A stretch of 64,000 nucleotides of DNA, from contig LT599018.1 of NCBI GenBank assembly GCA_900079685.1, forward strand, positions 613,012 through 677,011. The letters are read 5' to 3'. Origin of the DNA: an uncultured delta proteobacterium. Lineage in GTDB: Bacteria; Desulfobacterota; Desulfovibrionia; Desulfovibrionales; Desulfovibrionaceae. Numbering within the stretch: the first letter of the stretch is position 1; each line of letters starts with the position of its first letter. The notes beneath the pieces were generated by a model, which was not told the origin of the DNA, searched no databases, and was given only the letters and a program-made list of their open reading frames with translations. Made by a program: the position numbers and the translations under genes. Positions 26,752 through 39,421 of the stretch are shown here, one piece after another.

Positions 26752-27588
26752 TCATTTACGGGCCGCAATGGACAGGCTGACGACGTAGTCGGCCATTTCC
26801 TCGCCTTTGGGTAAGGTCTCGGCTATCTGCCTGTATAGCGGATCGTTCCAGTCCTGCATGTTCCGTACGTAGTCGGGTTTGGGCGTCAGCACGATGGAGG
26901 CAAACCCGGCTTTTTCCAGCATGGCCCTGGTTTCGTCCACCAGCACCGCTCCTGCCACGCACCCGACCAGTGCCGCGGCCATTTCCCGGATGGCATCGGG
27001 AAGAGGGCGCAGCAAGGCGAGATCGGAAACGGACACCGCGCCTCCGGGCTTCAATACGCGGAAAATTTCACGCCAGACCTGGGGCTTGTCCGGAGAAAGG
27101 TTGATGACGCAGTTGGAAAGCACCACATCGACACTGGCGTCCGGCACGGGCAGGTGTTCAATTTCGCCAAGCCGGAACTCCACGTTGTCCAGGCCGGTGC
27201 GCTGTTGGTACTGCGCGACGTTTTTACGCGCCCTGGCAAGCATTTCAGGGGTCATATCCACGCCGATGACGCGGCCGGACGCTTTGACCCTTTCCCCTGC
27301 CTGAAACGCGTCAAAACCGCCGCCGCTGCCGAGATCCAGCACAACCTGGCCTTCCCGCAGGGCCGCGATGGCCACGGGGTTGCCGCAGGAAAGCCCCATA
27401 TTCGCGCCGTCCGGCAGTTTGGCAAGACTTTCCGCGTCATAGCCGATGGCTTTCGCCAAACGGGCGGGGTCGGCCTGGTTGCCGCGCTCGCCTCCGCAAC
27501 AGCAGGAACGCTGCCCCGTGGCAATGGCCGCGTAGCCGGCGCGCACGGTCTCTCTCACACTATCGTTTGATTTGCGGTCCTCCGCCAT
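26752..27588 (-). CDS. arsM: Arsenite S-adenosylmethionine methyltransferase
   Basis: 278 residues. SAM motif I is [16 protein letters not shown]. The arsenic-binding cysteines typical of ArsM are present: the CCCGG cluster near residue 30, [17 protein letters not shown] and GCVAGA. The enzyme methylates As(III) to less toxic or volatile species. ATG 27588 has AGAGG at proper distance; a GTG two codons earlier is too close to it. The gene follows arsR by 20 bases and is therefore under arsenic control. Confidence 0.9.
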
Positions 27589-27608
27589 GTTCACAAACCT
27601 CTCTCACG

Positions 27609-27977
27609 TTACATGTTTTTATCGTCGCAACAAGCGGGAAACAATTCCGGCGCAACGCCGCTTTCCACCCTGTACGCCCGGCACTGATCGGGATTGCCGG
27701 AACAGCACTCCGCCGTCAGATACGCGACGGTTTCCAGCATCAGGGGGATGTTGGCCTTGTAACGCGTATTGCGGCCCTCCCGTTCCATACCAGCAAGCCC
27801 GCTGTGCACAAGGGTTTTGAGATGAAAGGAAAGATTGGTCTTCGGGATGCCCGACAACCGGGAAATTTCCCCGGCAACCAAACCGTCCGGCGCGTATTTG
27901 ACCAGCAGCCGGAAAACGGAAAGCCGGGCCTCGGACGTCAGGGCTTCAAAAATGGTGGTGGCTGTTCTTGTTTCCAT
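27609..27977 (-). CDS. arsR: ArsR-type metalloregulator
   Basis: 122-residue winged-helix repressor (EALTSEARLSVFRLL, then SGIPKTNLSFHLKTLVHSGL as recognition helix). Cysteines are C-terminal (AECCSGNPDQC and PACCDDKNM), and no ELCVCDL-type motif is present in helix 3, so As(III) may be sensed by C-terminal thiols, as in some ArsR subgroups. It starts at ATG 27977 directly beyond the operator/promoter. It likely represses itself and arsM. Confidence 0.85.
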   Translation of the reverse strand: METRTATTIFEALTSEARLSVFRLLVKYAPDGLVAGEISRLSGIPKTNLSFHLKTLVHSGLAGMEREGRNTRYKANIPLMLETVAYLTAECCSGNPDQCRAYRVESGVAPELFPACCDDKNM

Positions 27978-27983
27978 TGGACA

Positions 27984-28012
27984 ATAGTTCAACAGTAATT
28001 GAACTATGTCAA
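27984..28012 (-). promoter_or_regulatory. arsR promoter with overlapping operator dyad
   Basis: Perfect 9-bp inverted repeat ATAGTTCAA / TTGAACTAT with a 6-base spacer (27984-28007). On the minus strand TTGACA (28012-28007), a 17-base spacer and AACTAT (27989-27984) form a promoter that the dyad almost fully covers. The -10 ends 6 bases before the arsR ATG, so the transcript could start at the A of the start codon. Confidence 0.8.
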
Positions 28013-28300: not shown

Positions 28301-29932
28301 ATGAGCGAAGCTACCAGTAAAAAATTGGCGACCTCCGTTTCGACCGAGCCCGCGGCCAGAGCCAGAACCAGAAGTTCCCGGTCCGAAGCAGCCCTTGCCG
28401 ATATCCAGGAAAACTCTTTTTTCAAGGTCGTTTTTTCCGACAGTCTGTCCCTTGAGGATAAAATCCAGCACGTGACGAAAGCGCTGGAATTTACCAACAA
28501 CAAGGAAGAAGACCGGGCCAGGGTCAAGGAATTCGATTCTTTTAAAGAATACTTGCAGTCCGTTTCCGAAGAAATGTCCAAACAGCGCATCCAGATGACG
28601 GACACGGAAGTGTTTGCCGAACTGCAGCGCGTGTATTCCGATTTCAATAACGACCTGACCGAGTTCATCGACCAGGTAAAACCCCTCACCGACATCACGG
28701 ACGCGTTGTACAACCTGCGCCAGAGCGGGGAGACGCGGAACGTCCTGGCCCAGATCAAGGCCGATAAAGAGTGGGAATTCGAATCCGAAGAACAGAAGAA
28801 AAAACTGATGGAAACCCTTGCCTCCCTTGAATCCCGGATTACCGACCTGACGAATGCCAACTTCAGGCTGGCTCAGGACAAGGGGCTTTTCGGCTTCGGC
28901 CAGATCAGGCCGGATTCCAAAGCCCAGATCCTGACCAACGAAGCCCTGATTGAAAAACTGAAGGAAGAACTCAGCCGCAATACGGCGGAACTGGAAAAGC
29001 TCAACCAGCAAATCCAGGAACGTGAAGTCTTGCGCTCGCAGTCTTTTGAAGCGCAGAAGCTGCGGGAGTTGCTGGATTTGACCTCTGAAGAGCACACCCT
29101 GCGCCAGGCCGGGATGGTGGAATCCGCCCTCAAGTTTGTGAACCAGGGCAAAGAGCGGTTCGGGGCCATCAGAACGCACCTGGACAAGATGGTCAACCAG
29201 ATCGAAGGTCTGGGCGACAACAACGGCAACATGATCCAAATCTTCGCGGTCATGAACGAAGCGACCAAGAAAGCGGAAAACACCCACCGGGAACGCAGGA
29301 AATCCCTGGAAGAAACGGACCTCGGCGACAACCTGGTCGAAAAGATGAAGCATGATGAAGAGTGCCGGAACCTGGACGAGCATATCGACACGATGGCGAC
29401 CGCCACGGTCGATACCATGCAGACTTACGGCGAGTTGACCACCGAAGCCATCAAAATCAGAAACATGCAGGCCGCGACCAAGAAGCAGGTCGAGAGCGCC
29501 AGAGCCATGCACTCCCGGGGCATCGCCTCGGTGGCTTCCCAGCTCAGCGTGGTGGTTACCGCCGTGAACTCGGCCGCCATCAACGAAGCGCAGTCCATGG
29601 CCAGCAACACCTTGTCGGAAATGGCCAAGGTCACCAACGACATCGCCAAAAAAGAAGCCATCCGCATCGCCACGGGCCGGGACGAGATCAACTACGACCT
29701 GGAAGCCATGCTGCAGAACCTGGCGGAATTCGGCGACACGCAGCGGGAAGCCACGGAAATCACCCGGACGGCCCTGGAAACCATGCGTTCCAACCTGGAA
29801 GAGATAGAAAAGCTGGCCAAGGACGTCCAAACCGATACCAAGGACTTTGTGGGCGTGGCCGGGGATGTGCTTTCCAAAAAGACCGGCTCCACGGCCAAAG
29901 CGCCGGTGAGCAACTCTCCGTTCAAGTTGTGA
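28301..29932 (+). CDS. Large coiled-coil protein, possibly TelA-like
   Basis: 543 residues, almost wholly helical and charged, no signal peptide or membrane helix. Residues 80-260 read as long coiled coils ([18 protein letters not shown]). The C-terminal third contains [18 protein letters not shown] and [14 protein letters not shown], which resembles in pattern the conserved part of TelA/YaaN toxic-anion resistance proteins; this is a weak, visual match. GAGGAG precedes ATG 28301. The AAA+ gene follows after 10 bases, so the two probably form one module, with this protein as substrate or adaptor of the ATPase. Confidence 0.55.
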
Positions 29933-29942
29933 GATAGACAGC

Positions 29943-31802
29943 ATGCACTTGATACGAGGAACCGAGTACCTGGCCGCCTTTCCCCATTTCAAACTGGTGG
30001 ACCGGGAACAGGATCTGGAAAGAATTTCCGCCGTTCTGATCCGGAAATCATGCAACTCCCTGCTGCTGACCGGGCCGGGCGGCGTGGGGATTTCCGCGCT
30101 GGTGCTCGGCTTGCAGGCGGCGAAGGAGTTTCCGGACACGCCGTTTGACATTATCGTCAAGAAGCTGTTCTGGCTGGATACCGATTCGCTGTTTTCCAGC
30201 GGGGACAGCCTCAGGATCAACGACGATTTCCAACGGATGTTGAAAAAGCTGGACCAGACCCCCGAGTCCGTCCTTATCATCAAGGACGCCTTCAATTTCA
30301 TGGAGGCGGCGTACAACACCGGGAATTCCCATTTCATCAACGCCCTGAACAGCGTGGATAAATCCAACAGCTTCCAGGTCATCCTTGAAGCGCGGGATGA
30401 GCAGCTGACCGCGGTATACAAGTGGAATTCCGCCATTCCGGAACTGTACACGCTCTATGATGTGAAAGAGCCCACCGGCGCCAACCTGACGCGGATTGTG
30501 GCCAACGCGGGCGAAGAGCTCGCCGCGTACCATGAAATTGCCATAGATCCCTCCGCCATTGAAGAAGCCATCCACCTGACCAGCAAGTACAGAGACAGTC
30601 TGGGCCTGGGCGGGGCCCAGCCGCAGCGGTCCATATCGCTGCTGGACAGGGCGCTCGCGAGCTACCGCCAGCTGACGCACAAGCACCATCCCAAAATTGC
30701 CGAGCTTACCGCCAGGATCGCCGCAACGCCGGACGCCGGGGAAAAGGCCGGGCTGCAAACCCAACTGGACGCATGGATACGGGACTGGGAAGCCCTGAAG
30801 GCGGAAATCGGCAAAACGTATAAATACCAGCGGGACGGGGAAGCGTTGCGCTTCACGCTGCAAGACGAACTGGCCGCCCTGGAGGACGAGGCAAAGAACA
30901 ATACGCAGCCTGAGTCTTCCATGGTCAAGACCTTCGCCCAGCTGACCGCCAACGGGTTTGACTCCCCGCAGGTAGCGAAAATAAAAGATAAAATCCGGCA
31001 GATCGACAAAGAGATAGCCGGCAACGCCGAGCAGCACAAAAAACTGGTGGCCATCGCCAACAAAGATCTGCTCCTGACCAGGAACGAGGTCATAGCGGAA
31101 TTCAGCAAAATTTCGGGAATTCCCGCGACAAAGCTGGATGAAAACGAGATCGAGAACCTGATCAACCTCGAGAGCAACCTGTTATCCCGGATTTTCGGCC
31201 AGGATGACGCGGTGCGGCACGTGGCCAACTCGATCAAGGTCTCCAAGGTCGATACCATGGAGGAATCGGGCCCGGCTGTCTCCTACCTGTTCCTGGGGCC
31301 CTCCGGGGTGGGCAAGACGGAGATGGCCAAAGCCATCGCCCAATACGTATTGGGCGATGAAAAGGCGTTGGTCCGGTTCGACATGTCCGAATACATGGAA
31401 AAGCACGCTGTGGCCAAGCTCATCGGCGCGCCTCCGGGATACGAAGGGTTTGAGGCCGGGGGCATTCTGACCAATTCGGTCAGGAAAAAACCCGTGGGCG
31501 TCTATCTGTTCGATGAAAAGGGCGGCAATATCTGGGCCGTGAGAGGCTGCTACAACCAGAACTGCGACAGCGACTCGTCGCTCTATTACAGGATCAAGCC
31601 TTCCGTCTTCCACCATCTGTGGAGCCTCAGCCATAACGGCACCATCTTCCTGCCCGATACCATCGGCTCCAGCGTGCCGACAGGGCTGACGCGCTGCGAG
31701 GTGGATTCCTACGGCATCCGCACGAGGGTCTTGATGACGTTTCACGTCTATCCCAGCATTTTGAAGATAATGTGCGAGAATTACGGCGCGCCCGAAAAAT
31801 GA
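29943..31802 (+). CDS. ClpB-like AAA+ protein, truncated and chimeric
   Basis: 619 residues arranged like ClpB/ClpV without the N-domain. The first AAA+ domain (about 20-240) has a degenerate Walker A, GPGGVGIS, lacking the Lys, and no acidic pair in [10 protein letters not shown] helical middle region (260-400) follows. The second domain has an intact Walker [14 protein letters not shown], and Walker B, VYLFDE. Right after LFDE, where the family reads IEKAHP, the sequence switches to [15 protein letters not shown] and about 95 unrelated residues. Sensor 1, arginine finger and sensor 2 are missing, so the protein looks like an in-frame deletion fusion. Confidence 0.75.
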
Positions 31803-32284: not shown

Positions 32285-33061
32285 ATGGTTTACACTCGTC
32301 CCCAAAATACACGAAAACTTGATAAAACACAGAAAGTTTCACTAGTAAAGGAATACATAGCCCAGTACGAGCAGGCTTTACGCGAGCAAGGGGTTGAAGC
32401 TCTGAATTCGAAAATCCAGCGTGAGGTATTTGCGCCGATTTTGAATGATATTGGCGAAATTTTGTTATCTCAAGCAGGTAGCCTTTTGCGTGAGAATGAA
32501 GATGTAAAAACTTTTTTAAAAAACAATCCGTTGCCGCGCCATATGGCGGAGCTATTGCCTGAAGAATTCCGAGTGTTCTCCCTGTTACTGAACTCTTTAA
32601 AGCAGTGGGTTTCAGCGGAATCCGCCGCGACGGATAGATTTCTTTTGGGCGGTACTGCGCGACAGACGTGTCGAAAAGCTGTTACACATTGTATTATTAC
32701 AGGCGAACCACTCGGTGATAGCGCTGAATTGCATCATCCAGTTCGAGATGGCAGGCCGCCTGTTCTTTTAAGCAAAAAAGGACACGAAATTGTCGAGCGG
32801 GCTGTGACGAGAGAGACTGCTGGAGAAGAGTTAGGCGGTGAGGATTTATCTGAGTCGCAAAACGAACTGTGGCAAGACCTACAGGTCATGCGTTCTCAGC
32901 GTAGTCAGTCCTGGGTTCAGTTGCGAGAAGGGTGTTTACACCTTCTTAATCCTGCGGAACCATGCAGACCTGGCGCAAAATCCTTTGCTAACGTGGTAAT
33001 GCGTGATACTGGCAGAACCCCGACGGATGTCCTTAATCTTCTTGATTTGATGGGCAAATAG
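32285..33061 (+). CDS. Hypothetical protein with HNH-like motif
   Basis: 258 residues, A/T-richer than its surroundings, suggesting recent transfer. The N-terminal half is helical and charged. In the middle CIITGEPLGDSAELHHPVRD, then GRPPVLLSKKGHE, has the spacing of an HNH/His-Me finger (Cys, His-His, later His), though only one Cys is seen, so metal binding is uncertain. GGAGG precedes the ATG by 6 bases. No family is recognised with confidence; a nuclease role is a hypothesis only. It is convergent with the Fic gene. Confidence 0.5.
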   Translation: MVYTRPQNTRKLDKTQKVSLVKEYIAQYEQALREQGVEALNSKIQREVFAPILNDIGEILLSQAGSLLRENEDVKTFLKNNPLPRHMAELLPEEFRVFSLLLNSLKQWVSAESAATDRFLLGGTARQTCRKAVTHCIITGEPLGDSAELHHPVRDGRPPVLLSKKGHEIVERAVTRETAGEELGGEDLSESQNELWQDLQVMRSQRSQSWVQLREGCLHLLNPAEPCRPGAKSFANVVMRDTGRTPTDVLNLLDLMGK

Positions 33062-33109
33062 CCACTATGATATCATCCTCGAATCCGGCGAGACAACGCC
33101 GGAAAGAGA

Positions 33110-33147
33110 AATCCCTAAAGTCCGCTTATAGCGTGACTTTCGGGATT
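33110..33147. terminator. Bidirectional hairpin between convergent genes
   Basis: A 13-bp stem with one mismatch (33110-33122 with 33135-33147), extended by a CGC/GCG inside the loop; a smaller hairpin ATCCG-N8-CGGAT follows at 33149-33166. It separates the HNH-like and Fic genes. Confidence 0.6.
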
Positions 33148-33174
33148 CATCCGAACTTGTCCGGATAGGCTGAT

Positions 33175-33903
33175 TTATGAAGGATACAACTTCGAGCAAA
33201 CCCTACCGAAGTAACCAAACATCTCAGTCGCTTCACCGGAATTGTAAAACGCTCTCAGCTTTTCGTTAAATTCTTCCGTCGTTTCTCTCAGGACGGTAAT
33301 CGGGTAATAGCCCGCCGACAAAAGCACTCCGTTCATCATCAGTGAGGCGGTTCGCTTGTTGCAATCAAAGAAAAACTGCGTCCGGGACATGAAAAGGAAA
33401 GTGGCAATTGCCCGCTCTATGGGGTTTTCCATCTGTTCGCGTAAAAAAGAAAATCCTTTTTCAGCAAGCGAGGGAAGTTCATCCGCTGCCGGTGGGACGT
33501 ACGACACCCCGTGAATGTGAACTTGCTGGCTCCTCAGTGTGCCCCATTCCAAGGCCTCTTCTTTACCGACAACAGCGTGAAGCTGCTTGGCGAAGTCCAT
33601 ATCAAGGCGAAAGGACACATTTTTTATGGAATCAATCAATTGGGTCGCTGCATCGCCGAAGCGTTTCACCTGGCTCAACTGGTCAATGCTGATGCCCCCC
33701 ACGGCTTGCCCTTGGAGAATGGTTTCCGTCTGCGGCAGGGTGGAGGGGTTATTTTCAAAAACCCCCAAAGAGTTCCAGACAATCCCGGCCATGTTCTTTT
33801 TGAACATGAAAAGGGCCAAGTCCGGCCTGTTTTCATGCGGCACCGAGATGACTGTCGGCTCCCAGGAAAAGCCGAGAGATACTTCAAAAAGCCGTTTATC
33901 CAT
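33175..33903 (-). CDS. Fic-family protein with degenerate catalytic motif
   Basis: 242 residues. The Fic core is visible as ATFLFMSRTQFFFDCNKRTASLMMNGVLL. Aligned with the family motif HPFxDGNKRT it reads QFFFDCNKRT, so the catalytic His is Gln and the Gly is Cys, while Asn-Lys-Arg is kept. N-terminally ETILQGQAVGG resembles the inhibitory helix of class II Fic proteins, with the inhibitory Glu replaced by Gln. AMP transfer by the usual mechanism is unlikely; related proteins may have other roles. TTGAGTA repeats lie upstream. Confidence 0.75.
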   Translation of the reverse strand: MDKRLFEVSLGFSWEPTVISVPHENRPDLALFMFKKNMAGIVWNSLGVFENNPSTLPQTETILQGQAVGGISIDQLSQVKRFGDAATQLIDSIKNVSFRLDMDFAKQLHAVVGKEEALEWGTLRSQQVHIHGVSYVPPAADELPSLAEKGFSFLREQMENPIERAIATFLFMSRTQFFFDCNKRTASLMMNGVLLSAGYYPITVLRETTEEFNEKLRAFYNSGEATEMFGYFGRVCSKLYPS

Positions 33904-33935
33904 TGCAGGGTCCGATGAAAGCAGGGTTTCATTCC

Positions 33936-33981
33936 ACTCAAGAACATTGAGTAGAAACGTTTAGTGTTTATCGTACTCAAT
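33936..33981. promoter_or_regulatory. Repeated TTGAGTA/TACTCAA sites upstream of fic
   Basis: Three half-sites: ACTCAA (33936-33941), ATTGAGTA (33946-33953) and TACTCAAT (33974-33981). They form a tight dyad ACTCAA-gaaca-TTGAGT and a wider 8-bp dyad. The arrangement suggests an operator in the fic promoter region; the regulator is unknown. Confidence 0.45.
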
Positions 33982-34040
33982 TTCCTACGCAATAATTGTA
34001 CAGGAATCAATGATGCCCGGCGGGCCTCCCTGAGCATGAA

Positions 34041-34080
34041 AAAGCCTCAAAACCTATGTCGTCAAAGGATTTGAGGCTTT
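34041..34080 (-). terminator. tmRNA terminator
   Basis: Ten-bp stem AAGCCTCAAA / TTTGAGGCTT (34042-34051 and 34070-34079); read on the minus strand it is followed by a short T-run. It lies 27 bases beyond the tmRNA 3' end. Confidence 0.8.
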
Positions 34081-34106
34081 AATAAATCCACCGTCAGACT
34101 AAAATT

Positions 34107-34464
34107 TGGTGGAGGCGGGGGGAATTGAACCCCCGTCCGAGAAGTTTTCACGCGGAACGTCTACAGGTTTATGCCGGGTATGCGTCTTTCCGGAAGGGTC
34201 GCCCCCGACAGGGCATCTTCCGGGCAGCCTGCCGTAAAGTCTCGCGCCCGTCGCGACAGACATCTCGGGACGCCAGCCTGTTTAAGTATGTCCGATCCGG
34301 TGGTTCCAACAGGCGAAGACCCATCCATCACGGCGCGGTCAATTAAGCCGCGTAAGCGTAGTCGTAATCGTTGCCAATTACTTGTGTGCCGCTTTTTACG
34401 AGGCCAGCGGCGCCTCGACCTGCAATTCCGGCTTCCACGTCCCCGTCGAAACCAGTGCGCCCCC
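34107..34464 (-). ncRNA. ssrA: Transfer-messenger RNA
   Basis: 358 nt. The 5' end GGGGGCGCACTGGTTTCGAC carries the tRNA-like half with the conserved GGUUUCGACGGGG, and the 3' end gives the T-arm GGGGGTTCAATTCCCCCC and CCA; GGGGGCG and CGCCTCC form the acceptor stem. The tag reads GNDYDYAYAA followed by TAA, typical of Desulfovibrio except that the resume codon appears to be GGC (Gly) rather than Ala. It rescues stalled ribosomes together with SmpB. Accessory genes lie on its 3' side. Confidence 0.96.
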
Positions 34465-34492
34465 AATTCGGATACCCGCTTGAGGTCCACAA

Positions 34493-34520
34493 TACATAAG
34501 GCATTTTCCGTAAAATGCAA
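34493..34520 (-). promoter_or_regulatory. Candidate ssrA promoter
   Basis: On the minus strand TTGCAT (34520-34515), 16-base spacer, TATGTA (34498-34493); the mature 5' end lies 28 bases further, consistent with a processed leader. Confidence 0.5.
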
Positions 34521-34524
34521 GGAT

Positions 34525-34568
34525 AAAACCGCCGGACCCCGGCCGGAAGAATCACGGCCGGGGTCCGG
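34525..34568 (-). terminator. purC terminator
   Basis: Perfect 14-bp GC-rich stem (34532-34545 with 34555-34568), followed on the minus strand by GGCGGTTTTATCC; it starts 20 bases after the purC stop. Confidence 0.88.
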
Positions 34569-34587
34569 ATGCACTTGCCGGAGCTTC

Positions 34588-35292
34588 CTAACGGCGGAAA
34601 TATTCCGCCAGTTCCTGCCCGAGCACGCGTTCCGTCGTACCGGCCTTGAACGCGCGGCAACAGCCGGGAGATACTTCGTCGATGAGCAGGGGGGCGCCGT
34701 TTTCATCCAGGCCCCATTCGATTTTGATGTCCCAGAGATCCAGCTTGCGGGCCGTGAACATATCCTTGATGGCGGCCATGACGGCCCGGTTCTTTTCCCA
34801 GAGCTCGTCCATGACCTTGCCGTCCACGATGCCCAGCGCCACCAGGGCGGAAGGCACGATGGGCGGATCGCCCGCGGCGTCGTCTTTCAGGGTTACTTCA
34901 AACACGGGGGAGGGCAGGCGCATGCCGTCCTTCACGCCGGGCACCATGGCATAGCGGCGCAGGAAGCTGCCCGTGCAGACCCAGCGCGCCACCCATTCAA
35001 TGCCGGGGGTGAACATTTTCGCCTTGACCACATCCATGGAAAGCGACGGCAGATCAAAGGAGAGCATGTGCGTGCGCGCGATGTTCTTTTCGTTGATTTC
35101 CTTGAAGATGGCGGAGGTCATCAGAAGACAGGCTTCGCCCTGGCCGGGAATGGTTTCTTCCGCGAGATTGTTGCCGCCGGGATCGATCTCGCCGGCGTCA
35201 TTTTTGGTGACCCTGTCCGTGAAAACGAGGTGGAACACGCCCGGTCCCTTCTCGTAAACATCCTTTGTTTTTCCCCGGTAAACAAGCTGCAT
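34588..35292 (-). CDS. purC: SAICAR synthetase
   Basis: Phosphoribosylaminoimidazole-succinocarboxamide synthase, 234 residues, usual length. N-terminal YRGKTKDVYEKG is the ATP-grasp-like start, followed by LPSLSMDVVKAKMF and the carboxylate/aspartate site. The C-terminal LDLWDIKIEWGLDENGAPLLIDEVSPGCCR contains the metal-binding acidic motif. It joins CAIR and aspartate in purine synthesis. It is the only purine gene here apart from purQ at 53 kb. AAGGAG precedes the start. Confidence 0.92.
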   Translation of the reverse strand: MQLVYRGKTKDVYEKGPGVFHLVFTDRVTKNDAGEIDPGGNNLAEETIPGQGEACLLMTSAIFKEINEKNIARTHMLSFDLPSLSMDVVKAKMFTPGIEWVARWVCTGSFLRRYAMVPGVKDGMRLPSPVFEVTLKDDAAGDPPIVPSALVALGIVDGKVMDELWEKNRAVMAAIKDMFTARKLDLWDIKIEWGLDENGAPLLIDEVSPGCCRAFKAGTTERVLGQELAEYFRR

Positions 35293-35448
35293 ATGAAAGT
35301 CTCCTTGCTGTAATGTCGAAGACTTTCTCTAAACCGGGCCTTGCCGGGATGCAAGCATTTTACCCGGAAGAAGGGGGGCGGCGGCGGGAAAGGCGCACGG
35401 CGAAACCCGGAACAGGCGTGGTATCCGTTCCGGGAAAAAAAACGTTTT

Positions 35449-36042
35449 TTACGTGCGCGAGAAGTAAAAGTGGCTCATATCCCCTTTCAGGCTCATCTGG
35501 TAAACCGAGTAGGAGGATTTGTCGGCCCCGGAAGCCGTGTACGCTTCCATGCCCGTGTGCCGGGTCATGACCTTGTTGATGTTGGTCAGGTCTCGCAGCA
35601 CCTCCGATTGGGAGGCTATTTCCCCAAACGCCGTGGACAGGGCGGGATTTTCGGACAAAATGGCGTCCATGCGCTCTTTTTCCGGGTGCTCGCCCGCTAC
35701 CGTCAGAGAATTGTTCCGGTCAAGCCGCAGGGTCATTTTTTGCGTCAGGTCGACGCCATTCTCGGAAAGCGTCGTATACAGCGTGTCTATGAAGCCTTCC
35801 TGCAGCTTTTCGACGTTGGCGGACAGGGTGTTCAAAACATTGTTCTCCGAGCCGGCTATTTCACTGAGAACCGCCTGGATGCGCGGGGCAAGCGACGACA
35901 GTTTCGCCTGGTCCGTCATCTCCTGCAGGGTTCCCGACCCCGGAGCCTTGCCGGCGGCGTCACCCCGTGCGTCCGGAGTGTACTTTTCGCCCGTACTGCC
36001 GACGGTTCCCGGCTGGTTCGCGTATATGGACGATATCGTCAC
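35449..36042 (-). CDS. Hypothetical helical protein
   Basis: 197 residues, no signal peptide or membrane helix. The N-terminal 40 residues are disordered-looking (Gly, Thr, Pro). The middle is helical (LAPRIQAVLSEIAGSENNVLN), and the C-terminus is NKVMTRHTGMEAYTASG, ending in HFYFSRT. I do not recognise a family. The start at 36042 is followed by a plausible coding pattern. It stands alone, with a terminator-like hairpin 150 bases upstream; function cannot be inferred. Confidence 0.55.
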   Translation of the reverse strand: MTISSIYANQPGTVGSTGEKYTPDARGDAAGKAPGSGTLQEMTDQAKLSSLAPRIQAVLSEIAGSENNVLNTLSANVEKLQEGFIDTLYTTLSENGVDLTQKMTLRLDRNNSLTVAGEHPEKERMDAILSENPALSTAFGEIASQSEVLRDLTNINKVMTRHTGMEAYTASGADKSSYSVYQMSLKGDMSHFYFSRT

Positions 36043-36192
36043 GGGCCTCTCCTTTGTGAGCAGATTTTGCCTCTGCCACTCCCTTGCCTGGAACAGAGCA
36101 AGTTTGGTGCCAGTCGTTAAAAAGTATTATCGTAAATAATATTAGTGCTATAGGAAAAGAAGGGAGTGGGAAAAAATTGACTCCGGCATGCA

Positions 36193-36223
36193 AAAAAAGA
36201 CGGCCGCATAAGCCGTCTTTTTT
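36193..36223. terminator. Symmetric intrinsic terminator
   Basis: AAAAAAGACGGC (36193-36204), 7-base loop, GCCGTCTTTTTT (36212-36223): a 12-bp stem with A/T tails, functional in either direction. It lies just before the transposase remnant. Confidence 0.75.
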
Positions 36224-36240
36224 GCCGGTCCGGTAAAACA

Positions 36241-36732
36241 GGGGGCTCCAATACGGACATTGCGCGGGATAACGGCATTGGCGTGGCGACTGTCGAGCGC
36301 TATTACCACCAGATGATCGTCCATAAAAACAGCCATTTCCAGAACCGTGTCTGTCCTCGCGTTCTGGGTATCGATGAGCACCGGTTCACCCGGCGGCACG
36401 GTTTTGTGACCACGTTTTGCGATTTACAGAAAAGAAAGGTCATCGATATCGCCCTGGGCCGCGATCAGGGCCGGTTACGTGAGTTTTTGCTTTCGCTCAA
36501 AGGCCGGGAGCGGGTGAAGGTCGTTTGCATCGACATGAACTCGGCCTATCGCACCCTTGTCCGGCAATGGTTTCCGAACGCGATGATCGTGAGCGACCGG
36601 TTTCATGTCATCCGACTGGTGCAGCATCATTTTGCCAAGGTGTGCAAACTTGTGGACGAAGAGCACATTTCTTATGGCCGTGGCGGTTTGCTGCGCGTGC
36701 TGATGACCCGGCCGAAGGAAGCAATGGGTTGA
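36241..36732 (+). pseudogene. ISL3-family transposase fragment
   Basis: Reads NTDIARDNGIGVATVERYY (end of a helix-turn-helix), then VLGIDEHRFTRRHGFVTTF with the first catalytic Asp, VKVVCIDMNSAYRTLVRQWF with the second, and VSDRFHVIRLVQHHF. It stops at MTRPKEAMG, before the catalytic Glu, and lacks the N-terminal zinc-finger part, so only about 160 of roughly 400 residues remain. No terminal inverted repeats are visible. It is a decayed insertion sequence next to the integrase. Confidence 0.85.
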
Positions 36733-36843
36733 GCAATAGTGGTCATGGTCAAAAGACTCCTTTGAACTGGTTGGGTGTTATGGCCTCCTCAAGCGAGGCC
36801 CGGTTAAATCTTTCTGCCGTTGTGGGCATTGCGTAACGTCTCG

Positions 36844-39225
36844 TTAGCGATTGGCTTCCCCCGCCCAATACCCTGCCTTCAATCCTTCAAGGTCCAGCAA
36901 CGGCCGAGCATACTCGCTGAACCCTTTCGTCACCTCCGCATAGAGTATGTGCGGCAAGGTGTCCGGGGCATATCGACCGTATGTCATGGTGTCGTGGCTG
37001 TGCCCCAGGTGGCGGGCTGCACTCTTTTCCATGACGCGGTTCTGGTCGCACCAGCGGGAAAGGGTGTGCCGGAAGCTATGAAAGTTCTTTTGCGGCTCGT
37101 TCTTTTTGGGGGCAATGCCCACGGCCTTCCGGTATTTGTTGAACCATTTGGACAGTTGGTGCCCGAAATTATCTTCTTCCTTCCGCCTATACAGTTCAGG
37201 GAACAGACGGCCGTCGCCTTGTGGCAGTCTGCCCTTTGCCCGCGCCGCTTCCGCTTTTTTGAATATCCAGCCGACATAGTCGAGGAAGGCGAGGTCATCC
37301 GTCAGCACCGGGGACAGGGGCACATAGTGGCGGGAGGCCGCAGTCTTGAGCCGCTGATACTCTTTGCCCATGTTGATGAACAGACACAACGTTTCCTTTC
37401 CTTCACCGTGCGCCGCCGTCTTGGCTTCCACTATGGCTTGGGGAATGGAGACACCAGGAACGAAGACTCGGCGGTGGTCCCCCTGCCGGTTCACCAAGAC
37501 AATATCGTCTGTGTGAAGCTGAGACAGTTCTTCAAGTCGTGCCCCGGTAAAGAGGCCGAGCAACGGAACCCAAAAGCGGGACGCCTTGCCCCCGGAATCA
37601 AGTTTTCCGTGCCGGGCGACACGATTTTGTTCCCGCGCCGTGGTTCCGACAAGAAAACTGTGGGCACTGAACAGACTTGTCACATCCTGGTCGGTGAACG
37701 GGTCTCGTTCCTCGTGCGGCTGCTTTTCTGCCTTGATTTGTAGGATTCGCGCTATGCGGGGGTTGGTGTGATACTCCGATGTGGCCGCCCAATTGAGAAA
37801 AGCCGTGGGCGACTGGAAGTAGGTCTTGATGGTGTTGACCTTGATTCTGTCTTCCGGGGGGACGCCTCCCGATTCCGCAAGGTGAATAAGGGCGGGAGTG
37901 CCCAAGTCCCGGTATGCTCTGCTTTTGCTTCTGTTGGCCGGGAGTTGAAGTATGATGGTCTTGTACCGCTTCAAGTGCGCCGCGCTCAGACGGGACACCG
38001 GCAGGCGGTCATCTGGGTCAACAATGGCTTGGAACAAGGCGAACTTCGCCCGCTCCATTCGTGCAACCTTGGGCTTCCACGAGCCGTCAAGGGACTTATC
38101 TCGGAACATTTCCTCTATCGCTTCGGAGAGCTTCTTACCGGAAGGTGGTGTTTCCGGCTCTGGTGCCGTGGCTGCCGAGGGCGTAACGGCTGCGGCGGTG
38201 GGCGGCTGTGTCTGGACCTTCACCCGCCGCTTCTCCCGGCGCTGTTCCTGCCGTTCTTCAAGTCGGATGATTGCGGCGTCGTGGGCCTCATATTCTCCCA
38301 ATGCCGTTTGCGCACCTAGCTTTGCGTCAGTCATGCTCATTTTCAACATTTCGTTATATGCTCTGACGAACGGCATTGATGCTTTGGGTGGTGTTGCCAA
38401 GATGGCATCCGCATTTTCCGTTTCCGGGTCGGTGCTGACCCCGTTCCACCGTAAAAGCCGCTCTGTAGCCCGCGCCGTATACCAGTGTGCTTTCCCGCTG
38501 ATTAAGGCAACCCGCAGTTCCTCTTCCATTTTACGGCAGTTCTCAGAAAGCCTACGCGCCCGTCCCATAACATCATCTTCGGGCAGAGCGGGGGTAGGGT
38601 CATTGGCGAGGTATTCTTCCACTTCGTCTAAGATGGCATCCGCCTCCGGGTCGTCCGGTATCGGTCCCAAGTTACGACGAAAGGCTTCTTCCCCGGCTTC
38701 GGTGGAAAGAATCTGCCGCCCCTTGAGCGCAAGTAAAAGTGTGGTCTCCGCTATGGTACGAATCTCATCATCTGTCAGGCTGCCGAGTGCCCGGCCTTGG
38801 AAAAGGGGTGTGTACCCATGTTCATATGCTGTTTCGCCTTGTGCCACTTGCATTTTATCTCCACTTACGGGCCGGGGTGTGGACCTCCCGGCGCTAAAGG
38901 TTTTTCCTTCGTAAGTGGTCCCTATTAGATTTCGTTGGGAGAGAGGGTATTTATCACGGGCCAAAACGACCTCACGAACAAAGGCGAAAACCTCAAGCGC
39001 CGCCGTGGCGAGTCTGAGCGCCCGGAGCTTTGCCTCCGAGGCATAGCAACGGCCAAGACTGCGGCGATACTCGGTTTTCCCCAGGCAGGGCTGTAGGTCC
39101 GCCGGGATGCGGATACGGAAGGCCGGGGAATTATGGTGGGTGAAGAGGTAGGGAACGCCCTTACCGGCAGAAGCGGCGACGGTGACGGCGGGGGAGGAAG
39201 GCGCTACGGCGGTGCCTAAAAACAT
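36844..39225 (-). CDS. Tyrosine site-specific recombinase (integrase), large DUF6538-type
   Basis: 793 residues. The N-terminus VPYLFTHHNSPAFRIRIPAD resembles the DUF6538 domain found in such integrases. A long variable middle is followed by a core-binding domain (about 370-500) and the catalytic domain. Catalytic residues visible: Arg in LFTGARLEELSQLH, His-x-x-Arg in FHSFRHTLSRW, His in ARHLGHSHDTM, and the nucleophile Tyr in YGRYAPD. It lies 120 bases from the 3' end of tRNA-Met and reads away from it, the usual layout of an element integrated in a tRNA gene. It appears intact. Confidence 0.9.
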   Translation of the reverse strand: MFLGTAVAPSSPAVTVAASAGKGVPYLFTHHNSPAFRIRIPADLQPCLGKTEYRRSLGRCYASEAKLRALRLATAALEVFAFVREVVLARDKYPLSQRNLIGTTYEGKTFSAGRSTPRPVSGDKMQVAQGETAYEHGYTPLFQGRALGSLTDDEIRTIAETTLLLALKGRQILSTEAGEEAFRRNLGPIPDDPEADAILDEVEEYLANDPTPALPEDDVMGRARRLSENCRKMEEELRVALISGKAHWYTARATERLLRWNGVSTDPETENADAILATPPKASMPFVRAYNEMLKMSMTDAKLGAQTALGEYEAHDAAIIRLEERQEQRREKRRVKVQTQPPTAAAVTPSAATAPEPETPPSGKKLSEAIEEMFRDKSLDGSWKPKVARMERAKFALFQAIVDPDDRLPVSRLSAAHLKRYKTIILQLPANRSKSRAYRDLGTPALIHLAESGGVPPEDRIKVNTIKTYFQSPTAFLNWAATSEYHTNPRIARILQIKAEKQPHEERDPFTDQDVTSLFSAHSFLVGTTAREQNRVARHGKLDSGGKASRFWVPLLGLFTGARLEELSQLHTDDIVLVNRQGDHRRVFVPGVSIPQAIVEAKTAAHGEGKETLCLFINMGKEYQRLKTAASRHYVPLSPVLTDDLAFLDYVGWIFKKAEAARAKGRLPQGDGRLFPELYRRKEEDNFGHQLSKWFNKYRKAVGIAPKKNEPQKNFHSFRHTLSRWCDQNRVMEKSAARHLGHSHDTMTYGRYAPDTLPHILYAEVTKGFSEYARPLLDLEGLKAGYWAGEANR

Positions 39226-39229
39226 GATT

Positions 39230-39302
39230 GCCCCTCAAAGAACCCCGCCGTTGTTCGGCTGTGTGGACCCAACTTGTGGACCCACGGGGTTGTTTGAGGG
39301 GC
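39230..39302. repeat. Inverted and direct repeats between integrase and tRNA-Met
   Basis: Outer inverted repeat GCCCCTCAAA-N2-ACCCCG (39230-39247) with CGGGGT-N2-TTTGAGGGGC (39285-39302). Inside are two direct copies of TGTGGACCCA (39262-39271 and 39275-39284), period 13. Possible recombinase arm or excisionase sites. Confidence 0.65.
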
Positions 39303-39344
39303 AGAGCACGTAAAACCAGGATAAGTGCCTGATTTTATTAACTT

Positions 39345-39421
39345 TGGTAGCAAGGGAGGGAATTGAACTCTCGACACCGCGGGTATGAACCGCGTGCTCT
39401 AACCATCTGAGCTACCTTGCC
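39345..39421 (-). tRNA. tRNA-Met (anticodon CAT)
   Basis: 77-nt cloverleaf: acceptor GGCAAGG with CCTTGCT, D-arm AGCTCAGATGGTTAGAGC, anticodon stem CGCGG / CCGCG around TTCATAC, T-arm GAGAGTTCAATTCCCTC, encoded CCA. The G1-U72 pair and the stem exclude initiator tRNA. It is most likely elongator Met; an Ile-CAU tRNA (lysidine-modified) cannot be fully excluded from sequence alone. Confidence 0.95.

Follow-up and report, generated by a model that had tools for sequence, protein, structure and literature searches.

A coiled-coil protein paired with a Clp-derived AAA+ ATPase with a degenerate first site in bacteria and jumbo phages, and a remnant of the module in a delta proteobacterium

Among the described AAA+ machines, Pex1/Pex6 combines an inert ring with a motor ring, ESCRT-III/Vps4 relies on a C-terminal motif of a helical polymer for recruitment of the AAA+ ATPase, and ClpV (TssH) of type VI secretion is a motor of Clp origin devoted to a single helical-assembly partner. 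In its design, the module analyzed here is similar to AAA+ remodellers in which one ring is dead and which have a helical partner of their own. The parallel with Pex1/Pex6 and ESCRT-III/Vps4 is one of working principle, homology being claimed at the AAA+ level alone, and the likeness to ClpV (a dedicated motor and a helical partner) is an analogy, from which the module differs in its dead D1. Dodola (DolA/DolB) is similar in being a small operon with a ClpB-like ATPase, although the match to DolB is confined to D2, and comparison of the coiled-coil and third proteins with PADLOC and Pfam revealed no DolA-type protein in the module. The gene pair itself is present in the Agrobacterium jumbo phage Atu_ph07, where gp493 is a homologue of the coiled-coil protein (CC; 35% identity) and gp492 of the ATPase (AAA; 42%), in the same order as in the window, with D1 dead, D2 intact and the third gene some 1.5 kb beyond the pair. 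Unlike its counterpart in the window, gp492 is a full-length AAA+ protein; it is annotated as ClpB or ATP-dependent protease, and gp493 as a hypothetical protein. The published account names gp492 ClpB, ties it to chaperone work and counts it as one of seven Clp-like proteins, never as part of a module (PMC6102473). We found no description of the trio of CC, AAA and third gene in the literature, and so far it seems to have been annotated merely as "ClpB" plus hypothetical proteins.

The window, a stretch of 64,000 nucleotides from an uncultured delta proteobacterium, contains, at the coordinates given, the two ORFs that the earlier note had reported, namely, an ORF for a 543-residue CC and, after 10 bases, a ClpB-like ORF (Table 1). 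The similarity of these ORFs to their homologues far exceeds chance, full-length homologues being present in dozens of loci; the window AAA matches phrog_4871 with E=8e-104, reaching profile position 576 of 764, and the pair has the arrangement by which we recognize the module, CC followed on the same strand by a PHROG 4871-type AAA+.

Table 1. Features of the module remnant and its surroundings (positions in the window)
Feature	Position	Strand	Basis or remark
CC, intact ORF, 543 aa, helical coiled-coil, first gene of the module	28301..29932	+	homologues in 60+ loci
CC C-terminal tip SNSPFKL, candidate docking motif with conserved Pro-Phe	29909..29929	+	PF statistics
Fused AAA ORF, 619 aa	29943..31802	+	
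AAA+ 5' part, 525 codons: D1, middle helical region, D2 to Walker B	29943..31517	+	homology
D1 Walker A position GPGGVGIS, without Lys as in all homologues	30072..30095	+	sequence
D2 Walker A GPSGVGKT, intact	31296..31319	+	sequence
D2 Walker B VYLFDE, intact; AAA homology stops at its end	31500..31517	+	sequence
Third gene 3' part (OB-like, Cys-containing domain), in-frame fusion to AAA	31518..31802	+	identity to L090/L015
Methyltransferase + ArsR-type regulator pair	26752-27992	-	
Unknown ORF, beside the remnant	32285-33061		
Fic protein	33175-33903		weak match to SoFic and PDC-S04 defence models
tmRNA gene	34107-34464		
ISL3 transposase fragment	36283-36732		
Large integrase-like protein, adjoining tRNA-Met	36844-39225		
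tRNA-Met	39345-39421		

In the relatives, with phage members drawn from IMG/VR and Atu_ph07 and 28 bacterial loci from one GTDB scan, the unit consists of CC, a full-length AAA+ protein (660-812 aa) and a membrane protein with one TM helix and a four-Cys OB-like domain. The neighbourhood search that had been proposed as a check recovered the homologous pair throughout: in 57 of the 57 loci with both genes readable (six more loci, which end inside or before AAA, are outside this count), CC is immediately followed, on its own strand, by a full-length AAA+, with a median gap of 23 bases and three gaps greater than 300. The third gene is next after AAA in nearly all loci outside Gilliamella. Within about 10 kb, no other neighbour family is shared by more than 8 of 47 loci, barring the reverse-strand shadow ORFs of the module, and no theme is seen among the bacterial neighbour genes. 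The trees of CC and AAA have 24 of 43 splits in common, against a mean of 0.2 and a maximum of 2 for label shuffles. Both genes evolve under purifying selection (dN/dS 0.04-0.12, and 0.10-0.22 for the third gene; rough values, with dS near or above saturation), which for CC and AAA holds also in Gilliamella, where the third gene is absent. Accordingly, the idea of a machine devoted to a partner of its own, as opposed to a general chaperone, is well supported at the level of the family, given the recurrence of the pair and the presence of other Clp/ClpB proteins in the host; it does not extend to the window copy, which is broken, and it overlooked the third gene. Two loci depart from the common layout: a phage contig (L122:11609-14168) with 2.56 kb between CC and AAA, the sole large interruption seen, and a Micavibrio MAG (L105:11900-14223), in which the AAA frame is apparently split into ORFs of 108 and 630 aa, possibly a second decayed copy or a sequencing error.

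The asymmetry between the two ATPase domains is the most consistent trait of the AAA protein. The first Walker A of the window copy indeed lacks its lysine, as had been noticed, and so do 54 of 54 homologues; in 52 homologues, Asp occupies the place of the Walker B Glu. The window D1 Walker B, SVLIIKDA, was said to have lost its acidic pair, which applies to the first acid, replaced by Lys, but not to the second position, where Asp in the Glu place leaves a single acid. Both the YRG pore motif and the RR finger that D1 of a host Clp protein has (L003, the one host protein compared) are replaced in this family as well. D2, in contrast to D1, keeps GKT and DE in 55 of 55 homologues, the pore Tyr in 54 of 55, an Arg-finger-type motif in 52 of 54, and GAR in 54 of 54, so that the loss confined to D1 is conserved across the family and does not reflect decay. 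No Clp N-domain was found in AAA, and the IGL/IGF loop that binds ClpP is missing from D2 in all 51 full-length homologues that allowed the segment to be located, setting the family apart from protease ATPases of the ClpA/ClpX type. With D1 inert, D2 intact and this loop absent, the family AAA+ looks, from its motifs, like a one-ring motor with no ClpP partner, and the PHROG label "ATP-dependent protease" is probably wrong. With ClpB/Hsp104, the family shares the tandem AAA+ domains, the D2 motifs and the lack of an IGL/IGF loop; it differs in the absent N-domain, the inactive D1, which departs from the Lys in both Walker A motifs that marks ClpB/Hsp100, and the dedicated neighbours. The score against the ClpB model TIGR03346 is 231.9 bits, compared to a cut-off of 1232, and that against the ClpV model TIGR03345 is 207 bits, compared to 885. 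No type VI secretion genes are conserved around the module; VgrG-like genes are near a single locus, in Halopseudomonas laoshanensis, where VgrG-like, DUF4123 and VasX_N genes lie just upstream of the module (L109:1821-9438).

The predicted model of CC, of modest confidence, is nearly all helix (pLDDT 72, pTM 0.45), with the highest conservation at about residues 389-460, a region that includes a mildly hydrophobic helix (413-432). Pro-Phe is present in the final 12 residues of 49 of 58 unique CC proteins, compared to 1.2% of random 12-mers, and in the model this tip, a candidate docking motif, ends a low-confidence linker. CC matches no Pfam family, and a plasmid search for CC homologues yielded none. 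The sequence search of the PDB gave nothing convincing (one match, E 6e-4, spanning 53 positions), and the fold search of the PDB and BFVD retrieved generic long-helix proteins, including alpha-pore-forming ones, with scores usual for helical bundles; these matches are uninformative and carry no weight in our reading. The TelA-like C-terminus perceived in the earlier note did not hold up: no Pfam TelA match was obtained among 14 CC proteins, and although the profile-profile score against a narrow TelA set (33.3) is above all 40 shuffles, that against a wider set (27.7) is equalled or beaten by 2 of 60. Homology of CC to TelA (PF05816) is accordingly not supported, the likeness being only that of long helical proteins. 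The genome of the window also encodes a genuine TelA (G000:C1:1823790-1824782, L173; E 8e-108), which adjoins a membrane protein, a pairing kept in relatives.

The third protein belongs to no Pfam family, and the sequence search of the PDB returned nothing convincing. In its predicted model (pLDDT 94), long N-terminal helices and a strongly hydrophobic helix are followed by a beta domain, for which the best 50 structural matches listed (VIA) are all OB folds, with Z of 6.3-7.8, a range common for unrelated models. Four Cys are located within the last 130 residues in 31 of 39 proteins, and the OB-like domain may be periplasmic, with disulfides. The third gene was not found in any of 13 Gilliamella loci read or elsewhere in two searched Gilliamella genomes. 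Since it is absent in this genus, the third gene is dispensable, and, given that Gilliamella manages without the membrane protein, action at the membrane may be secondary. A separate, second partial match to the third protein occurs away from the module in one genome (that of locus L102; G494:C2:999401-999796, E 1.4e-14).

The module is patchily distributed. Its bacterial hosts include Gilliamella (14 of 35 genomes), Halopseudomonas (5 of 37 genomes of the genus), Mameliella (3 of 198 genomes of the family), Plastoroseomonas, Dongia, Micavibrio and deltaproteobacterial MAGs; it is found in 2 of 385 genomes of the class of L098, both loci already in the set, and in 1 of 395 genomes of the phylum of the window, which is the window's own. 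In Gilliamella, the loci read occupy a single chromosomal site, with one flank constant and the other mostly groES/groEL. Among the viral records carrying the module, which reach 608 kb, 11 of 18 have a large terminase match. In the CC tree, the window groups with Gilliamella (support value 99), the next to join being Plastoroseomonas (100). This grouping crosses class boundaries and is nested in a larger set to which nearly all phage rows belong; the deeper parts of the tree are uncertain given the long branches. Judging from this cross-class grouping, the module was moved by horizontal transfer, in a direction of which we are unsure. A compact, co-inherited unit with a conserved pseudo-ATPase ring is common to several bacterial classes and some of the largest phages, and its study would reveal the purpose of the private Clp motor of giant phages; it lends itself to direct tests through its partner, its candidate docking tip and a naturally occurring variant that lacks the membrane protein.

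To the computed features of the family (module composition, co-inheritance, D1 loss with D2 retention, purifying selection, patchy spread) and the fusion in the window, we attach a reading that we hold with about even confidence: the window copy is a decayed, horizontally acquired accessory trio, of which the intact copies would serve as a Clp-derived remodeller of CC near the inner membrane. The intact AAA+ would assemble as a hexamer, the inert D1 ring serving as a scaffold and the D2 ring, with its Walker A/B, Arg finger, sensor 2 and Tyr pore loop, as the motor. CC would be a dedicated client or adaptor, gripped perhaps via the Pro-Phe tip, and assemblies of CC would undergo remodelling close to the inner membrane, the third protein perhaps serving there as an anchor or a sensor, with the membrane part optional. 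In a bolder and quite doubtful version, the trio would represent a new class of AAA+ machines, associated with the inner membrane and found in both bacteria and jumbo phages, whose pseudo-D1 Clp motor dismantles a helical CC polymer recruited through Pro-Phe, following an ESCRT-III/Vps4- or Pex1/Pex6-like logic.

The patchy, accessory distribution and the carriage by jumbo phages are also what would be expected of a conflict module, with CC and AAA+ as the sensors of infection and the membrane protein contributing to action on the envelope, be it in anti-phage defence, phage-versus-phage competition or superinfection exclusion. D2 weakly matches ClpB-like DolB of Dodola and the candidate PDC-M37B, but the DolB match spans D2 alone, as would that of any Clp family member, neither CC nor the third protein matches anything in PADLOC or Pfam, the family of DolA included, and recurring defence neighbours were not seen. 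Considering also the fixed chromosomal site, strong purifying selection and lack of the membrane part in Gilliamella, we find a conflict function conceivable, if unlikely. A dedicated stress or assembly chaperone, that is, a disaggregase or an assembly factor acting on virions or on host proteins, for which CC would be the substrate adaptor and the membrane part incidental, lies close to the published reading of gp492 (PMC6102473). Such a role draws on that suggestion, on the Hsp100 ancestry of AAA and on the adjacency of the CC-AAA pair to groEL in most Gilliamella loci; it is made rather doubtful by the missing Clp N-domain and inert D1, the existence of bacterial modules without phage neighbours, and the co-conservation of the third gene in most lineages.

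Coming back to the remodeller reading, its first part concerns the fate of the window copy. The earlier note had described the second Walker A and B as intact, which is correct, but the D2 domain is incomplete: homology to AAA relatives ends at residue 525 (base 31517), whereas full-length relatives extend about 185 residues further, so that about 185 codons, including sensor 1, the Arg finger and sensor 2 of D2, are missing. Residues ~528-612 of the ORF correspond instead to the C-terminal end of the gene located after AAA in relatives (L090 third protein, 58% identity over 86 aa, E=2e-36; L015 third protein, 52% over 83 aa), and of this third gene, the C-terminal part alone remains, without start and TM helix. 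By comparison with the Plastoroseomonas locus, where the corresponding stretch runs from AAA codon 532 to codon ~133 of the third gene, the missing DNA amounts to about 0.9 kb, with a putative junction at about 31517-31527; the fusion is in frame, for which any such join has a one-in-three chance. As read from one assembly, AAA and the third gene were joined and broken by a deletion, and the window copy should have no ATPase function and is almost certainly dead as a motor. An intron or intein in place of the deletion is ruled out, the remainder of D2 being absent and the tail belonging to another gene. With D2 cut after Walker B and the third gene incomplete, the window falls short of the full module; it is a remnant and not a working member, and the interest rests on the intact family. 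An assembly error behind the fused ORF, with an intact module in the genome, is very unlikely: there is a single assembly, and the sole same-genus genome (74% complete) lacks CC, but the genome consists of 3 contigs, and a search of it with the AAA fusion found no further AAA copy. Mere decay of clpB or clpV, as the truncated D2 and a D1 without catalytic residues in the window might suggest, deserves almost no credence, being contradicted by D1 changes common to all homologues, which have an intact D2 and are under purifying selection, and by the other Clp genes of the host, at 30% identity; the member that decayed here is one of a different family.

The remnant is flanked by the methyltransferase/ArsR pair, presumably an arsenite methyltransferase locus, and, on the other side, lies beside a mobile-element setting (32285-39421) that extends to the tRNA-Met gene.
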